A stretch of DNA of 50,694 nucleotides from Mycobacterium sp. UM_CSW. Its GTDB lineage: Bacteria; Actinomycetota; Actinomycetes; Mycobacteriales; Mycobacteriaceae. The position numbers and the translations under genes are program-made. This document shows positions 3,645-39,959 of the stretch, one piece after another. Numbering within the stretch: position 1 is the stretch's first letter; each line of letters begins with the position of its first letter. The stretch covers positions 1 to 50,694 of the forward strand of contig NZ_AUWQ01000036.1 of assembly GCF_000455205.1 (NCBI RefSeq). The letters are read 5' to 3'. The notes under the pieces are model-generated. The model was not told where the DNA came from. It ran no database searches and saw only the letters and a list, made by a program, of their open reading frames with translations.

Positions 3645-6600
3645 CTATTGCTTGTCCTTGGGTTCCAGCGCGGCGACCCGGTTGGCCAGCCAGTTGGGCG
3701 CCAGCACCGACACGGCGGTGGCACCCGCCGTCGAACCGATCACGCCGGACCAGGCGACCGGCCCCAGGGGCGTGCAGCCGAAGAACTGGCTGACGCCCGG
3801 GGTCTGCACGATGGCGACCAGCACACCCGCGCTGCCCAGCGCGGTGGCCAGGACCAGCGGGCTGTGGCGGCGGGTCAGCAGGGTCTGCGCGAGCTGCGTG
3901 CTCACCAGCGCCGTGAGACCCATTGTCGACGTGCGGCGTTCGGTGCCCGGAGTCCAACGCCCGATGGCCCAGGCCGCCGTCGCGCCGGCGGCGGTGACGG
4001 CGCCGCGGGTGACGATCTGGCGCATGAGCGGCGCGTCGAGCGACGGCGAGGGTTCGGACAGCGCCGCCAGCTGGAAGGCCCGCTGCATTTCCTCGGCGTC
4101 GCGATCGGCGCCGTCCTCATCGTCTTCTGGTTGCGGGTATTGCGGCGTGACGGCCACCGCGAGCGCGGGAAACATGTCGGTGAGCAGGTTCACCAGCAGC
4201 AGTTGACGCGTGCCGACCGGCGCCCGGCCGGTGCCCAACGCGGTGCCGATGATGGTGAAGAGCACCTCGCCCACGTTGCCGCCGACCAGGATGCTGACGG
4301 CGTCGCGCACCCCGCCCCACATGCCGCGGCCCTCGACCAGCGCGTCGAGCAGGACGCCGAGGTCGTCGTCGGTCAAGACGATGTCGGCGGCCCCGCGGGC
4401 GGCCGACGACCCGCGACCGCTGACCCCGATGCCGACGTCGGCCATCCGGATCGCGGCGGCGTCGTTGGCCCCGTCGCCGACCATCGCGACCGCCTGCCCG
4501 CTGTGCTGCAACGCCGCGACGATCTGCACCTTCTGCTCGGGGCTGACGCGGGCGAACACCTGCACGTCGGCGGCGAGTCTGGCCCGGGCGTCCTCGTCGA
4601 GCGCGGCCAGTTCGGCCCCGGTGGCCTCACGTGCATCCGACGGCAGCCCCAGCTGACGCGCGATCGCCCGGGCGGTGACGGGATGGTCGCCGGTGATCAG
4701 CACGACCCGGCGTCCGGCCTGCACCAGCGCCTCGATCAGCGGCCGCGCCGACGGGCGCGCGGTGTCGGCCAATCCCACAAAGCCGACCAGCTCCAGGTCG
4801 TGCGCGGCGGCGTCGACGCTGTCGGCGTCGGTGTCCTCCTCGGCGGTCCCGCGGTCCCAGTTGCGCCGGGCCACCGCCAGCACGCGCAGGCCTTCCCCGG
4901 CGAGACTCAACACCAACGACTCGGCATGGTCTTGGTCGCCGTTGCCTTCGGCGAACCGGCAGCGCGGCAGGATCTCCTCGGGGGCGCCCTTGACCATCAG
5001 CATCGGCTCCGCCGTCGCGGCGGTGGCGGTGACGATGGAGGCAGAGTAGCCGCGACTGGACTCGAACGGCACCTCGGCGAGCACGGTCCATTCCGAATCC
5101 GCCTGACCATCAAGGGAATTGGCGGCGGTCAGGATGGCCTCGTCGGTGGCGTGCGCGTGCCCCTGCCCGTTGTGCGGCTGGGTGCACGCGCGCGCGGCGA
5201 TGCGCAGCACCTCGGCGGCCCGCGGCTCGGCGGGATCCGGGAAGGGGCCGTCCGCGCTCGTCTCCTGCGGCACCGCCCGGACGAGGCGCAGGCGGTTCTC
5301 GGTGAGGGTGCCGGTCTTGTCGAAGCACACCGTCTGGACGCGGCCCAGCGCTTCGACGGCGCGTGGGGTGCGGACCAGCACGCCGCGCCGCGACAACCGC
5401 TGGGCCGCGGCGAGCTGGGACAGGGTGGCCACCAGCGGGAGGCCCTCCGGGACGGCGGCCACCGCGATCGCGACGCCGTCGGCGACCGCCTGGCGCAGCG
5501 AACCCTGGTGCGCCAGGGCCAATCCGGTCACCGCCGCGCCGCCGGCAAGCGTCAGCGGAAGCACCTTGCTGGTCAATTCCCGCAACCGCGCCTGCACCCC
5601 GGCGGCCGACTCGACATCGGCGATCGCCGACATCGCCCGTTGCGCGGCGGTGCCGGCGCCGGTGGCCACCACGATCGCCCGGGCGCGGCCGGCGACGATG
5701 GTGCTGCCCTCGAAAAGCATGCTGGCCCGGTCGGAGTCCGTGACCGCGACGGGATCGACCTGCTTGTCCACCGGCAGCGACTCACCGGTGAGGAAGGACT
5801 CGTCGACCTCCAGGTCCTCGGCCACCAACAGGCGTGCGTCCGCGGGCACCACCTCGGGGGCGGCCAGGTCGATGATGTCGCCCGGGCGCAGCGACTTGGC
5901 GCTCACCGTCACGGTCCGATCGGTCGAACGGGCCGCCTCGAGCCGGCGGCGCGCCGTCGCAACGGTCGGGAGGACGACGCGCCGCGCGTGCCGGTCCTGC
6001 TCGGCGAACAGCTCGGCGACCGCCGCCTCGGCCCGCAGCCGCTGCACCCCGCCCGCGATCGCGTTGGCCGTCATCACGCCCGCGACCAACAGCGCGTCGA
6101 CGTTGCTGCCGACGATCGCCGAGGCCGCCGCGCCCACCGCCAGGATCGGCGTGAGCGGATCGGCGAGCTCGGCCCGCGTCGCGGACAGCAGCCGCCCCAC
6201 CCGGGTGGCCGGGCCTCGCAGCGGCGCGACGAGGGGGTTGTAGGAGAGGTCGTCGAGGACCTGCCGCCAGGGCGCCTCCCCGGGCTCGACGGCCAGCGGA
6301 CGCGTGCGGCTGGCCAGCCGCGAGTAAACGATTTCGGGATCCAGGGCGTGCCACGCGGTCAGCGGCTGCGGCGTGGGGTCCGGCAACCGGAGCGCCCGGG
6401 TGGCCGAGAAGACGCCCGATACCAACGCGGCCGCGGCGGCGGCGTTGACCGGGTTGAGCCAGCGCTGCACCGCCAACGGATTGGCCGTTCCGGGCTCGCC
6501 GGTGACCAGCAACAACCCGGCCAGCGTGCTGCCGCCCTTGGCCAGGCGCACCGACGATTCGGTGGCCTCCCTGGCCACCGGCAGCGTCGAGAGGATCCGC

Positions 6601-9120: not shown

Positions 9121-9495
9121 CTAGCCGGTGTCGGGTGAGCGTTGTTTGAAGAACACGCTGACGCGAGAGATCAGCCCGTCGTCACCCCGCTCGAAAAGAA
9201 TGCATTCGGGCCACGTCGCGCTGACGCCGTCGATCTCGAACGCCTCGGTCAACTCGACATAGGAAAGGCGATCGTTCACGTGGGAGACCCGCTGCACCTC
9301 CAGCCGGTGACCCTTGAGGGTCGTACACACCTTGCGCAGGTAGGCGACGTAGTGCTGCTTGCCCTCGACGACATCGCAGAACGGGCCCTCCCGGGTCAGT
9401 CCGTCGTCGGCGATGGTGGCGGCGAGGCCGTCCCAATCATGGGCGGCGAGGCATTCCAGGTAGCGCTCCACGACGCCGGCCCGGACCTCAGTCAC
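9121..9495 (-). CDS. NTF2/SnoaL-like fold protein
   Basis: The 124-aa protein has the pattern of an NTF2-like (SnoaL, DUF4440-type) domain: an N-terminal helix with VERYLECLAAHDWDGL, a strand and cup region, and a C-terminal run of beta strands with ATWPECILFERGDDGLISRVSVFF. Members of this fold are small-molecule isomerases, dehydratases or ligand-binding proteins; which one this is cannot be told from the sequence. I start at the GTG at 9495 because GAGGT lies eight bases upstream; an ATG at 9537 would add 14 residues lacking a ribosome binding site. The gene is divergent from the rhomboid gene with only about 70 bp between the starts. Confidence 0.75.
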   Translation of the reverse strand: MTEVRAGVVERYLECLAAHDWDGLAATIADDGLTREGPFCDVVEGKQHYVAYLRKVCTTLKGHRLEVQRVSHVNDRLSYVELTEAFEIDGVSATWPECILFERGDDGLISRVSVFFKQRSPDTG

Positions 9496-9562
9496 ATTCG
9501 GTGACCTCACGGAAAACACAGTAAGGCACCGCGGCAACCTGGGAAACGGTGAGAATAGTGCG

Positions 9563-10420
9563 ATGACTGCACCCAGGCCACCGGAGGCCGAAGCGCCGAC
9601 GTGCTACCGGCATCCCGGTCGCCAGACCTATCTCCGCTGCAACCGCTGCGAGCGCTACATCTGCCCGGACTGCATGCGCGCGGCCGCGGTCGGTCACCAA
9701 TGCGTGGAATGCGTGGAGGCGGGCGCCCGAAGCATTCGTCAGCCCCGCACGCAATTCGGCGGGCGGGAACGGACCGGCACGCCGGTGGTCACTTACGCGC
9801 TGATCGCGATCAACGTGGGAGTGTTCGCGCTGCAGATGTCGGTGCGGGGCTTGCAAAGTCAGCTCGTGCTGTGGCCACCCGCCGTCGCCGACGGCCAGCT
9901 GTACCGTTTGGTGACCTCGGCGTTCGTGCACTATGGCGCCGCTCATCTGCTGCTGAACATGTGGGCCCTGTACGTCGTGGGCCCGCCCCTCGAGATGCTG
10001 CTCGGCCGGTTGCGGTTCGGCGCGCTGTACGCGCTGAGCCTGCTGGGCGGGTCGGTGCTGGTCTATCTGATCACGCTGAACACGGCGACGGCGGGCGCGT
10101 CGGGCGCGGTGTTCGGCCTTTTCGGGGCCACGTTCGTGGTGGCGAAGCGGCTCAACCTCGACATGCGCTGGGTCGTCGCGGTCATCGTGATCAATTTGCT
10201 CTACACGTTCGTGGCTCCGGCCGTGAGTTCCGAACGGATCAGCTGGCAGGGCCACGTGGGCGGGCTGGTGACCGGCGGATTGGTCGCCGCGGCTTACGTT
10301 TACGCGCCGAGGGAACGCCGCAACCTGATCCAGGCCTCGGTGACCGTCCTGGCATCGGTTCTGTTTGCGGCGTTGATCTGGTGGCGCACGGGCGTTCTCG
10401 CGGCGGAGCTGTACCTGTGA
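9563..10420 (+). CDS. rhomboid intramembrane serine protease with N-terminal zinc-ribbon/B-box-like segment
   Basis: This 285-aa protein matches the position and type of Rv0110. Residues 14-50 contain six or more Cys/His residues in CYRHP, CNRC, CPDC and HQCVEC patterns, a probable zinc-binding module in the cytoplasm. From about residue 75 onward there are six hydrophobic segments. The catalytic serine is in GASGAVFG (Ser180) and the partner histidine in QGHVGGL (His231); the HLLLNMWALY segment is the conserved rhomboid helix-2 motif. It should cleave transmembrane substrates within the lipid bilayer. The stop codon overlaps the GTG of the next gene, so the two are coupled. Substrates are unknown. 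Confidence 0.93.
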   Translation: MTAPRPPEAEAPTCYRHPGRQTYLRCNRCERYICPDCMRAAAVGHQCVECVEAGARSIRQPRTQFGGRERTGTPVVTYALIAINVGVFALQMSVRGLQSQLVLWPPAVADGQLYRLVTSAFVHYGAAHLLLNMWALYVVGPPLEMLLGRLRFGALYALSLLGGSVLVYLITLNTATAGASGAVFGLFGATFVVAKRLNLDMRWVVAVIVINLLYTFVAPAVSSERISWQGHVGGLVTGGLVAAAYVYAPRERRNLIQASVTVLASVLFAALIWWRTGVLAAELYL

Positions 10421-37456: not shown

Positions 37457-37497
37457 GCGTCAAGTAATTTGACGCCCATTGGGTCGCGGTGCAAGAT
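37457..37497 (+). promoter_or_regulatory. promoter of the M-box transcript with an inverted repeat over the -35
   Basis: TTGACG (37469-37474), a 17-base spacer and CAAGAT (37492-37497) form a good sigma-A-type promoter whose start site would fall just before the first base pair of the riboswitch at 37508. The -35 is part of a perfect 7-bp inverted repeat, GCGTCAA (37457-37463) and TTGACGC (37469-37475), which suggests a protein operator in addition to RNA control. Confidence 0.65.
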
Positions 37498-37507
37498 GGA
37501 CGGGCAA

Positions 37508-37673
37508 GCACCTCGGTAGGTGAGGCGTCTGCACGGATACAGGCCACTGACCCCGAACGTCGAGAGACGCCCCGGGTCAGGACAGCTCTTCCCGGACCCA
37601 AGGGTTGAGCCCAAGTGGCTTCCGGAACCTTCGGATACGCCGTGCAGTGCCGAAGCTCCGACGAGAGGGGTGC
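37508..37673 (+). promoter_or_regulatory. M-box (ykoK leader) magnesium riboswitch
   Basis: The conserved M-box elements occur in order: TAGGTGAGGC (37517-37526), GGATACAGGCCACTG (37535-37549), GTCGAGAGACGCC (37559-37571) followed by the GGGTCA/CAGG block, GGATACGCC (37633-37641) and GCAGTGCCGAAGCTC (37644-37658). The closing stem P1 pairs GCACCTC (37508-37514) with GGGGTGC (37667-37673). The class folds compactly when several Mg2+ ions bind and then lowers expression of the genes downstream. A terminator hairpin begins at the next base. The regulated genes are the 69-aa protein and the NRAMP-type transporter, which fits Mg2+ homeostasis. Confidence 0.95.
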
Positions 37674-37700
37674 GACCGGTGGTTTTCCGCCGGTCATTTC
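37674..37700 (+). terminator. expression-platform hairpin of the M-box
   Basis: GACCGGTGG (37674-37682), a TTTT loop and CCGCCGGTC (37687-37695) form a nine-pair hairpin with one G-U pair, directly abutting P1 of the riboswitch. The following ATTTCGCCTCTTCC is only mildly U-rich, so termination may be partial or need Rho. Read-through would allow expression of the transporter at low magnesium. Confidence 0.7.
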
Positions 37701-37767
37701 GCCTCTTCCGTTCAGGTGAATGTGACGACACCCGCGTGTGTCCCGGCCGTGAGGAGGTGAGGGCGAG

Positions 37768-37842
37768 ATGAGTCCCGGCGACAGTCCGTATCCCAATTCC
37801 GTCTTGTCCCGATCCGGTTCCGGCATTCTTTTCGCCGCCTGA
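37768..37842 (+). CDS. 24-codon leader peptide between the M-box and the transporter operon
   Basis: ATG at 37768 is preceded by GAGGAGGTGA (37751-37760), the best ribosome binding site in the region. It opens a 24-codon frame: MSPGDSPYPNSVLSRSGSGI followed by LFAA, with a TGA at 37840. Three of the first nine residues are Pro. Proline-bearing leader peptides act with Mg2+ sensing in enterobacterial mgtL, and small ORFs next to the M-box are plausible coupling devices; a similar role here is inference. It lies 73 bases after the terminator hairpin and about 95 bases before the next gene. No protein-level evidence is available. Confidence 0.55.
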   Translation: MSPGDSPYPNSVLSRSGSGILFAA

Positions 37843-37937
37843 TTTGTTCGGGTGCCCTATACCGCTGCGCAGCAAGCGCATTGCGGGCGCCTACGGCCAT
37901 GCCAGGAGCCGATCGGACCTCCCGACAGGAGACGATC

Positions 37938-38147
37938 ATGGCTTTTGTTGTTGCACAACGCCTTACCGGTCCGCAGCGGGGACGCGGCCGGTCGATGCTG
38001 CGAATCGGCCGACTCTTGGTCGGCAAGCTGCACGCGCGCAGCACGCTGACTCCCCAGGAGCGGGCCAACCTCTATGTCTCGCGCATGCCGATCGCGGTCA
38101 TCTCGGCCTCGCTCGGCGGGCATCCGCCGGACAGCAACCGGCGGTGA
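37938..38147 (+). CDS. small basic protein under M-box control (Rv1535-like by context)
   Basis: The 69-aa product starts MAFVVAQRLTGPQRGRGRSM and includes RIGRLLVGKLHARSTLTPQERANLYVSRMPIAVISA, with many Arg/Lys residues and a short hydrophobic patch. ATG at 37938 has AGGAG at a suitable distance. In M. tuberculosis the short gene Rv1535 is one of the genes directly downstream of an M-box, so this could be its counterpart; I infer this from context and have not compared the sequences. It lies 45 bases upstream of the NRAMP-type gene on the same strand and is probably co-transcribed. It might be a small regulator or partner of the transporter. Confidence 0.75.
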   Translation: MAFVVAQRLTGPQRGRGRSMLRIGRLLVGKLHARSTLTPQERANLYVSRMPIAVISASLGGHPPDSNRR

Positions 38148-38192
38148 TTCGCTAGCCCGAGCCCGAACCTGTTCGGAGATAACGAGGATTCG

Positions 38193-39959
38193 ATGACGTC
38201 GATCTCGACCGAGCCCCGCGGCGGCATGAGTACGTCCGGGGCGCCAGGCCAAGCCGTGCTGGATTCGGCGCACGCCGGCGACATCGTCGGCGCGTTCGGC
38301 CGCATCCACCGGGACGCGGCGCACCCAGGCACCGGCGGCCGGTGGCGGCGGCTGCGGACGCTGCTCGTCATCACCGGCCCCGGACTGATCGTGATGGTGG
38401 GCGACAACGATGCCGGCGGCGTCGCGACCTATGCCCAGGCGGGGCAGAACTACGGGATGCGGCTGCTGTGGACGCTGGCGATGCTGATCCCGGTGCTGTA
38501 CGTGAATCAGGAGATGGTGCTGCGGCTGGGCGCGGTCACCCGGGTCGGCCACGCGCGACTGATCTTCGAGCGCTTCGGCAAGTTCTGGGGCGCCTTCAGC
38601 GTCGGTGATCTGCTGATCCTCAACGCGTTGACGATCGTCACCGAATTCATCGGAGTATCACTGGCACTGGGGTTCTTGGGCTGCCCCAAGGCGATCGCGA
38701 TCCCGGCCGCCGCGGTGTTGTTGTTCGCCGTGGTGGCCGGGGGCTCGTTCCGCCGCTGGGAGGGCCTGATGTTCCTGCTGATCGCGGTGAATGTGCTCAT
38801 CATTCCCATGGTGCTGTTGGCGCATCCCACGCTGAAAGGAACCGTGGGCGGGCTGGTGCCGCAATTCCCGGGCGGGCTCAACTCGACCGTGCTGCTGCTC
38901 GTCATCGCGATCGTGGGCACGACGGTCGCGCCGTGGCAGCTGTTCTTTCAGCAGTCCAATGTGGTGGACAAGCGCATCACGACCCGCTGGATCGCTTATG
39001 CCCGAGCCGATCTGATCATCGGGATCGTCGTCGTCATGGTCGGCGCGACGGCCCTGATGGCGGTGACCGCGTTCGGGTTGGCCGGCACCGCCGATTTCGG
39101 CGGCTTCACCGACGCGGGTGCGGTGGCCGCCGGCCTGGCCCGGCACCTCGGCGGGACGGTGGGTGCGCTGTTCGCGATCATCCTGCTGGACGCGTCCTTG
39201 ATCGGCGCCAACGCGATCGGGCTGGCCACCACGTATGCCGTCGGTGACGCGTTGGGCAAGCGGCACTCGCTGCATTGGAAGGTCAGCGAGGCTCCGCTGT
39301 TTTACGGCGGGTACGCCGTGTTGCTGGCGGTGTCCGCCGCGGTCGCGTTCAGCCCGGACCACGTCCTGGGCCTGGTGACCCAGGGCGTGCAGGCCCTCGC
39401 GGGCGTCCTGCTGCCCTCGGCGACGGTGTTCCTGGTCCTGCTCTGCAACGACCGGGCGGTGCTCGGGCCGTGGGTAAACACGGTGCGGCAGAACATCATC
39501 GCGTGGGCCGTCGTGTGGTGTCTGGTGGTCTTGTCGCTCGCGCTGACGGCGACGACCTTCTTCCCGGGCCTGTCCACGGGCACTATCGAGGCCGGTCTCG
39601 CGGTCGGCGCGACGATCGGGATCGTGGGCGGGGCCGTCGCGATCGTCACCGGCCGGCGGCACCGGGACCGGCGGGACGCGGAAGCCGTCGCGGGGACGCT
39701 CGGCGGTGGCCTGGATCCCGAAGAGGTGGACGAACTCGACGACGCGCCGCTCCTTACGCGCGCCGAGCGGCGGGCTGTGCGCCGGCAGGACCGGGCGCAC
39801 TGGCAGACTCCCGACATCGCCATGCTGGACCGGCCGGCCATGTCGCCGATCCGGCGGGCCGGGCTGTTGACCCTGCGGGGCTATCTGGTCGTGGCCGTCG
39901 TGTTTGTGATCATCAAGATCGTGCAGGCCGGCATAATCGGGCCGGCCACGTCGCTGTGA
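38193..39959 (+). CDS. NRAMP-family transporter, probable NRAMP-related Mg2+ transporter (NRMT)
   Basis: The 588-aa membrane protein has the SLC11/NRAMP layout of about eleven helices, with helix 1 starting ITGPGLIVMVGDNDAGG and helix 6 at IVGTTVAPWQLFFQQSNVVDK. The transition-metal motifs are changed: DPGN of helix 1 is DAGG (Asp73 kept, Asn replaced by Gly76) and MPH of helix 6 is APW (Met replaced by Ala246). Loss of the soft Met ligand is a hallmark of NRAMP-related Mg2+ transporters. A hydrophilic segment of about 80 residues precedes the last helix. The N-terminal 50 residues are cytoplasmic. The M-box upstream independently indicates Mg2+. It probably imports Mg2+ (or Mn2+) at low supply. 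Confidence 0.9.
   Translation: MTSISTEPRGGMSTSGAPGQAVLDSAHAGDIVGAFGRIHRDAAHPGTGGRWRRLRTLLVITGPGLIVMVGDNDAGGVATYAQAGQNYGMRLLWTLAMLIPVLYVNQEMVLRLGAVTRVGHARLIFERFGKFWGAFSVGDLLILNALTIVTEFIGVSLALGFLGCPKAIAIPAAAVLLFAVVAGGSFRRWEGLMFLLIAVNVLIIPMVLLAHPTLKGTVGGLVPQFPGGLNSTVLLLVIAIVGTTVAPWQLFFQQSNVVDKRITTRWIAYARADLIIGIVVVMVGATALMAVTAFGLAGTADFGGFTDAGAVAAGLARHLGGTVGALFAIILLDASLIGANAIGLATTYAVGDALGKRHSLHWKVSEAPLFYGGYAVLLAVSAAVAFSPDHVLGLVTQGVQALAGVLLPSATVFLVLLCNDRAVLGPWVNTVRQNIIAWAVVWCLVVLSLALTATTFFPGLSTGTIEAGLAVGATIGIVGGAVAIVTGRRHRDRRDAEAVAGTLGGGLDPEEVDELDDAPLLTRAERRAVRRQDRAHWQTPDIAMLDRPAMSPIRRAGLLTLRGYLVVAVVFVIIKIVQAGIIGPATSL

Follow-up and report, generated by a model that had tools for sequence, protein, structure and literature searches.

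The 50,694-nucleotide (nt) stretch of Mycobacterium sp. UM_CSW analysed here (contig NZ_AUWQ01000036.1, hereafter the window) carries a complete M-box aptamer followed by NrmT, a gene of the NRAMP-related magnesium transporter (NRMT) type, with three short open reading frames (ORFs) lying between them. We consider it highly likely that this M-box senses Mg2+, that it is OFF at high Mg2+, and that it gates the second and third of these short ORFs (uORF2 and uORF3) together with a transporter that imports Mg2+. The pairing of an M-box with NrmT has been known since 2014; what is new here is the leader architecture placed on this ordinary core. The locus occupies positions 37457-39959, a span first proposed in a sequence-only reading and found sound, since both the M-box and the 588-amino-acid (aa) transporter were confirmed inside it. 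That reading listed these two parts correctly and overlooked the promoter pair and the small ORFs. All elements lie on the plus strand, in the order promoter (37469-37498), M-box (37505-37676), uORF1, uORF2, uORF3, and NrmT, and the gap between aptamer and transporter, which holds the three short ORFs, measures 516 nt.

The M-box aptamer and its NRAMP-related transporter

The M-box (ykoK leader) Mg2+ riboswitch aptamer at 37505-37676 matched Rfam family RF00380 in cmscan at 148 bits (E 9.6e-34), against a gathering score of 44. The match extends over model positions 1-169 of 169, with no non-standard pair marked in the alignment, in agreement with the complete M-box that had been read from the letters. 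No other Rfam family exceeded its gathering score in the window.

The downstream gene (38193-39959) encodes a 588-aa protein of the NRAMP family (Pfam Nramp, 230 bits) that falls far short of the NCBIfam MntH model (88.3 versus a cut-off of 430). NRMTs are defined by the motifs DxxG in helix 1 and TxxA/T in helix 6, which replace DxxN and A/CxxM (PMC8806188). The window protein carries this signature (DxxG, TxxA, APW), with N72-D73-A-G-G76 in place of the classical DPGN and G242-T-T-V-A-P-W248 in place of the classical GAT(I/V)MPH. The loss of the transition-metal motifs claimed earlier (DPGN to DAGG, MPH to APW) is seen here, and the genome's own MntH retains DPGN and MPH. Both helix-6b histidines of that MntH are replaced in the window protein (by W and Q), the one feature here that bears on the NRMT trait of Mg2+ transport without proton coupling. 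E151, the acidic residue of helix 3, and Q400, the glutamine of helix 10, are retained. Among 84 aligned transporter rows, NDAGG occurs in 60 and NDAGA in 21, the latter all from more distant loci. The genome holds four NRAMP homologs, among them the classical MntH on contig C40 (DPGN and GATVMPH), a second NRMT on C28 (NDAGG and GTTVAPW), and an intermediate form on C10 (DAGS and GAVIMPW).

Structural comparison led to the same family. The best sequence match in the PDB was EleNRMT of Eggerthella lenta, at 188 bits against 59 for the next chain. A structure model built from 29 sequences (mean predicted local distance difference test score, pLDDT, 81.2) again returned EleNRMT as the top Foldseek match (E 2.4e-17, 32% identity), followed by DraNramp (E 8.8e-14, 23%). 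Both NRMT proteins share DxxG-TxxA, a tryptophan at the first helix-6b histidine, and the D (alpha1), E (alpha3), and Q (alpha10) residues (PMC8806188). They differ in sequence, at the identity just given, and in a C-terminal extension of the window protein past the NRAMP core (residues 495-588), where the model shows a loop of low confidence and one more predicted helix (552-582) without counterpart in the 438-residue EleNRMT chain.

Linkage of the riboswitch and the transporter was counted in 148 genomes, comprising the window's own genome and its relatives. An M-box is present in 48 of the 148 genomes and a transporter relative (E <= 1e-30) in 54. For every transporter at least 69% identical to that of the window (28/28), an M-box precedes the gene by no more than 1.5 kb in the same orientation; the same holds for 1 of 28 at 50-61% identity, of which 7 have one within 6 kb. 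A further set of named genomes consisted of the best 80 of at least 585 confirmed transporter relatives found by peptide patterns; since PWQLFFQQ is part of these patterns, that this motif is constant among the loci is partly built in. An M-box lies upstream at 42 of the 44 loci in this set that are at least 65% identical, the exceptions being L078, whose contig breaks off 574 nt ahead of the transporter gene, and L113, from a genome without any M-box. The reverse strand of these loci also scores in the M-box search, more weakly, and the counts for this set use plus-strand matches only; locus L012 was excluded from the M-box profile. The remaining 36 loci have an M-box directly upstream in 5 cases, and the covariance model found one anywhere in only 9 of 36 genomes searched. 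Linked loci occur in Mycobacterium, Mycolicibacterium, Nocardia, Streptomyces, Streptacidiphilus, and Kutzneria.

A tree built by a quick method (LG+G4) placed the window protein in a clade of 45 rows with full support (Shimodaira-Hasegawa-like approximate likelihood ratio test, SH-aLRT, 100), of which 43 have an M-box directly upstream; row L130 was omitted because of a frame problem, and the outgroup rows own_C40 and own_C10 sit on very long branches. The aptamer score, the NRMT signature, the match to EleNRMT, and the unbroken linkage at high identity all support the earlier statement that the M-box is placed to control an NRMT-type transporter. In Streptomyces griseocarneus (L109:855-18905), an NrmT gene was observed amid three M-boxes within 18 kb.

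Promoter and short ORFs of the leader

A putative promoter precedes the aptamer, formed by a -35 element TTGACG (37469-37474), an 18-nt spacer, and a -10-like AAGATG (37493-37498). TTGAC occurs within 70 nt upstream of the aptamer at 42 of 48 related loci, against a background of 3.9%, commonly near -37 to -40 and in one of the 42 at -61 instead. This conservation suggests that transcription probably starts at the aptamer; a sigma-70 consensus scan gave no promoter-like site upstream of it. Scanning of the leader on either strand yielded no terminator-like site, which fits a terminator-free mechanism of the pe20 type.

The first short ORF, uORF1 (37679-37771), has a GTG start, with an alternative in-frame GTG at 37670, and equates to the poorly conserved uORF1 described in PMC12810186. 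Its stop overlaps the start of uORF2 (ATGA). uORF2 (37768-37842) encodes 24 aa, MSPGDSPYPNSVLSRSGSGILFAA, and is the counterpart of the uORF2/Rv1805A reported in PMC12810186, with a proline at position 7. It is served by the Shine-Dalgarno sequence AGGAGG (37752-37757; GAGGAGGTGAGG conserved among aligned leaders), 10 nt ahead of a start codon that lies 91 nt past the aptamer end at 37676. The arrangement that marks the pe20 type, a uORF2 with a strong Shine-Dalgarno sequence about 90-100 nt after the aptamer, is therefore found in the window.

Counts of the small ORFs hang on purpose-made patterns applied to 48 loci with both M-box and transporter. By a permissive pattern, uORF2 was found at 43 of the 48, with its core in 42. 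All nine Nocardia loci examined have it, each with GDSPYP, and a weaker form with GSSPHP occurs in Streptacidiphilus. uORF2 has been described as specific to mycobacteria (PMC12810186); since Nocardia loci have it, it is not restricted to them. L162 has a second ORF of the uORF2 kind (MNQSDSPYPYSKS...), which is preceded by a strong Shine-Dalgarno sequence and lies about 700 nt past the minus-strand M-box of that locus, behind a 123-aa ORF that matched no Pfam family.

The codons of uORF2 are unusually constant. Within its first nine codons at the 43 loci, tyrosine is always TAT (25/25), AGT accounts for 70 of 79 AGY codons, and GAT for 33 of 41 aspartate codons, whereas the transporter genes at these loci use the three codons in 20%, 18%, and 26% of cases. 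At one proline position the wobble base varies (CCG 23, CCC 11, CCT 2, CCA 1) and the proline is kept. This fixed choice implies that nucleotides or decoding speed are constrained beyond the peptide. The ratio of nonsynonymous to synonymous change (dN/dS) was 0.80 in frame against 0.55 and 1.19 in the shifted frames, a comparison of non-independent pairs that leaves peptide-level selection unsupported and does not decide between constraint on the peptide and constraint on the nucleotides. A GAUA/UAUC hairpin drawn within the conserved stretch was discarded, as the window (GAC) and some other loci break the pairing without compensation.

The third ORF, uORF3 (37938-38147), encodes a 69-aa small protein of an unnamed family, recognized by its translation, homologs, and dN/dS. 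It was found by pattern at 35 of the 48 loci, Nocardia loci among them, and the 148 genomes contain 37 matches in 35 genomes, all of one genus. The database homologs number 290, of which the 120 listed are all unnamed or 'hypothetical', and no Pfam family was matched. The in-frame dN/dS of 0.47, against 0.90 and 1.59 in the shifted frames, supports peptide-level selection, with the reserve that the pairs are not independent. The structure model is poor (mean pLDDT 57.5, predicted template modelling score 0.25; 26 of 35 sequences aligned, nine divergent ones excluded).

An M-box lies 216-913 nt upstream of uORF3 at 34 of its 37 matches, and for 10 of these 34 the 8 kb that follow contain no transporter in the same orientation. 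Neighbours of the window's locus still surround four of the ten (L169, L170, L175, and L176), which keep the M-box and uORF3 and lack an intact transporter; L169 retains a 109-residue C-terminal remnant, and none is detectable in the other three. In L172, a P-type cation ATPase is the next gene after uORF3. In this light, uORF3 looks like a companion of the M-box, with or without NrmT. Two tandem copies stand behind a single M-box in L171, apart from the transporter locus of that genome (G050). Kinship of uORF3 with Rv1535 was considered and dropped: the 76-aa ORF at L157 has no visible similarity to it and no Pfam match, in a comparison made by eye with an ORF whose locus is taken to be rv1535-like from its neighbour and which is not the H37Rv gene.

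Known systems, metal specificity, and competing explanations

M-box control of an NrmT that carries Mg2+ was reported in Clostridium acetobutylicum (Shin et al. 2014, PMC4072509), and such M-box/NrmT cases come mostly from Clostridia and Deltaproteobacteria, as that article describes them. The window shares with this system an M-box before an NRAMP-related, NRMT-type transporter and, in other copies of its own genome, the pairing with an MgtE_N-type protein. The systems differ in that the M-box there is reported mostly to control an intrinsic terminator, whereas here no terminator was seen and the long leader with its short ORFs intervenes. A closer parallel is the pe20 M-box/Rv1805A of Mycobacterium tuberculosis (PMC12810186), with the same aptamer, uORF1/uORF2 layout, and uORF2 peptide; downstream it has PE/PPE genes, in contrast to uORF3 and an NRMT here.

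The arrangement is less new than the sequence-only reading supposed, because the same article (2026, PMC12810186) already lists a class of M-boxes that precede 'manganese transporter-type' genes in mycobacteria, a class not observed in M. tuberculosis. Its text gives no gene or species for the class, which is very probably the locus type of the window, given that close homologs bear the name 'manganese transporter' in public sources. By the NRMT signature, the class is probably named for the wrong metal, and the class would more likely be of Mg2+ type. In the main text of PMC12810186, 'mgtL', 'mntH', and 'Nocardia' are absent and 'nramp' occurs in the references only. In the literature searched, the figures and supplement of that article aside, neither uORF3 nor runs of PE/PPE/NrmT genes were found described.

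In the mechanism that we favour, transcription would begin at the promoter just upstream of the aptamer. High Mg2+ would close the aptamer; if the pe20 switch is a guide, the uORF2 start would then be masked and transcription terminated by Rho within the leader. At low Mg2+ an open aptamer would allow read-through, so that uORF2, uORF3, and NrmT are made and the NRMT-type transporter brings in Mg2+. No intrinsic terminator was seen, so the mode of action reported for the pe20 relative is the most likely one for this switch. The earlier claim that the M-box controls the transporter is borne out as to placement; with three short ORFs between aptamer and transporter, such control is probably not direct. 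As to substrate, the transporter likely imports Mg2+, a conclusion drawn from the signature together with the M-box linkage, which tips the balance. The residues that had been said to point to Mg2+ are indeed present, but by themselves they are not decisive: introducing the NRMT site into EcoDMT did not confer Mg2+ transport on the mutant (PMC8806188), and the NrmT of Acidobacterium capsulatum, discussed below, behaved as a Mn2+ transporter.

Several points weigh against this account. The A. capsulatum NrmT, which lacks an M-box, behaved as a Mn2+ transporter and rescued a Mn2+ defect (PMC4072509), and EleNRMT and other NRMTs also transport Mn2+ (PMC8806188). Close homologs of the window protein are named 'manganese transporter' or 'Mn2+/Fe2+ NRAMP family transporter' in the source databases, by automatic annotation, and PMC12810186 cites work suggesting that a mycobacterial M-box also binds other divalent ions. 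Common gene order by itself is no proof of a single transcript. Finally, a candidate anti-Shine-Dalgarno element, CCTCTTC (37702-37708, plus strand), was read from the sequence after the model in PMC12810186 and the aligned leaders, and could form part of a translational platform by pairing with SD2 or, alternatively, SD1; its complementarity to the uORF2 start was no better than that of shuffled linkers, with none of the 43 loci reaching 0.05 or less, the window at 0.07, and a mean energy difference from shuffles of +0.18 kcal/mol. It was accordingly dropped as independent proof of such a platform.

The first three of these points, with the class name itself, would fit a true 'Mn2+-type' locus, in which the transporter imports Mn2+ (or Fe2+) and a ligand-relaxed M-box responds to that metal. 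We regard this as unlikely, because the transition-metal methionine and the asparagine of DPGN are replaced in the window transporter, a classical MntH already exists in the same genome, the linkage to an otherwise Mg2+-specific riboswitch is complete among close transporters, and the Mn2+-like NrmT of Shin et al. is precisely the one without an M-box (PMC4072509). A different division of roles, rather doubtful in our judgement, would have the M-box act directly and chiefly on uORF3, with uORF2, and make the transporter a passenger gained or lost downstream. The M-box-uORF3 matches without a transporter, the four syntenic loci that keep uORF3 without an intact transporter, and the placement of uORF3 before a P-type cation ATPase or in duplicate are all in its favour; yet close transporters retain the M-box without exception and so are likewise bound to it, 13 of the 48 loci gave no uORF3 in the pattern search, and this ORF has a poor structure model and no assigned function.

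The favoured mechanism also leaves room for more than one reading of uORF2. Its conservation as an RNA element, and not as a peptide, is a tentative possibility to which we give somewhat more room: the near-fixed synonymous choices and a dN/dS that is not below that of one shifted frame speak for it, whereas the proline is kept while its codons vary at the wobble base, the hairpin that can be drawn is broken in the window itself, and translation of uORF2 has been reported (PMC12810186). Another elaboration would place two Mg2+ sensors in series. In it the M-box would gate uORF2, which, with its GDSPYP and fixed U-ending codons before prolines, would act as a Mg2+-sensitive leader ORF of the mgtL/mgtQ kind; ribosome slowing or drop-off at low Mg2+ would keep Rho away and open uORF3 and NrmT, uORF3 would serve specifically as a small protein of Mg2+ starvation, and in some species the same switch would drive a PE/PPE pair and a second NrmT, which would form the outer-membrane and inner-membrane stages of a single route of Mg2+ import. 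In Salmonella, mgtL is a Mg2+ leader ORF with acidic and proline codons that precedes a Mg2+ transporter gene. Salmonella mgtQ is likewise a short ORF with acidic and proline codons before a Mg2+ transporter gene (PMC8092293), as uORF2 is. uORF2 differs from both in sitting behind an M-box, its likeness to them lies in sequence and fixed codons, and the whole scheme is improbable as it stands.

Other M-boxes, PE/PPE/NrmT runs, and significance

Further M-boxes accompany related genes elsewhere. In five genomes (G045, G046, G060, G071, and G083), a transporter paralog of 57-59% identity lies 2.5-5.3 kb after another M-box; each of the five also has PE- and PPE-like ORFs behind this M-box. The corresponding runs are L160, L162 (5345-12402), L163, L164, and L165, and a uORF2-like ORF is present in all but L165, where the filter did not see one. 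The full set was recovered by Pfam in L162 (PE, PPE, WXG100, a PRC/MgtE_N/CBS protein, and Nramp); single-protein Pfam searches gave WXG100 in L163 and MgtE_N and CBS in L164. Divergent M-box pairs less than 1 kb apart were observed in L162 (4754-4920 minus, 5345-5511 plus), L163 (2710-2880 minus, 3752-3918 plus), and L118 (9038-9209 minus, 9421-9592 plus); in L162, a direct NRMT locus follows one member of the pair and the PE/PPE/NRMT run follows the other.

The window's own genome contains related arrangements on other contigs. On C28 (L159:5886-8848), a PRC/MgtE_N/CBS protein is followed by the second NRMT, which is about 60% identical to that of the window over the matched part, with no M-box nearby. 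On C86 (L158), a pe20-like M-box precedes PPE-like ORFs and MgtC, and on C23 (L157) an M-box precedes the 76-aa ORF and an apparent ileS, in an rv1535-like arrangement; a uORF2-like ORF is present at both.

If the favoured mechanism is true, the M-box class that bears the name of manganese is in fact a magnesium class, and non-tuberculous mycobacteria and nocardiae would own an NRMT-type Mg2+ importer under a Mg2+ riboswitch, beside a classical MntH in the genome of the window. The presence of uORF2 in Nocardia, before a transporter and in loci with no PE/PPE genes, argues against a role tied only to PE/PPE. The retention of uORF3 behind M-boxes even after loss of the transporter offers a handle on the role of this small protein. 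The M-box/PE/PPE/NrmT runs, in turn, would fit the proposal that PE20/PPE31 serve Mg2+ entry, with NrmT as the candidate inner-membrane partner.

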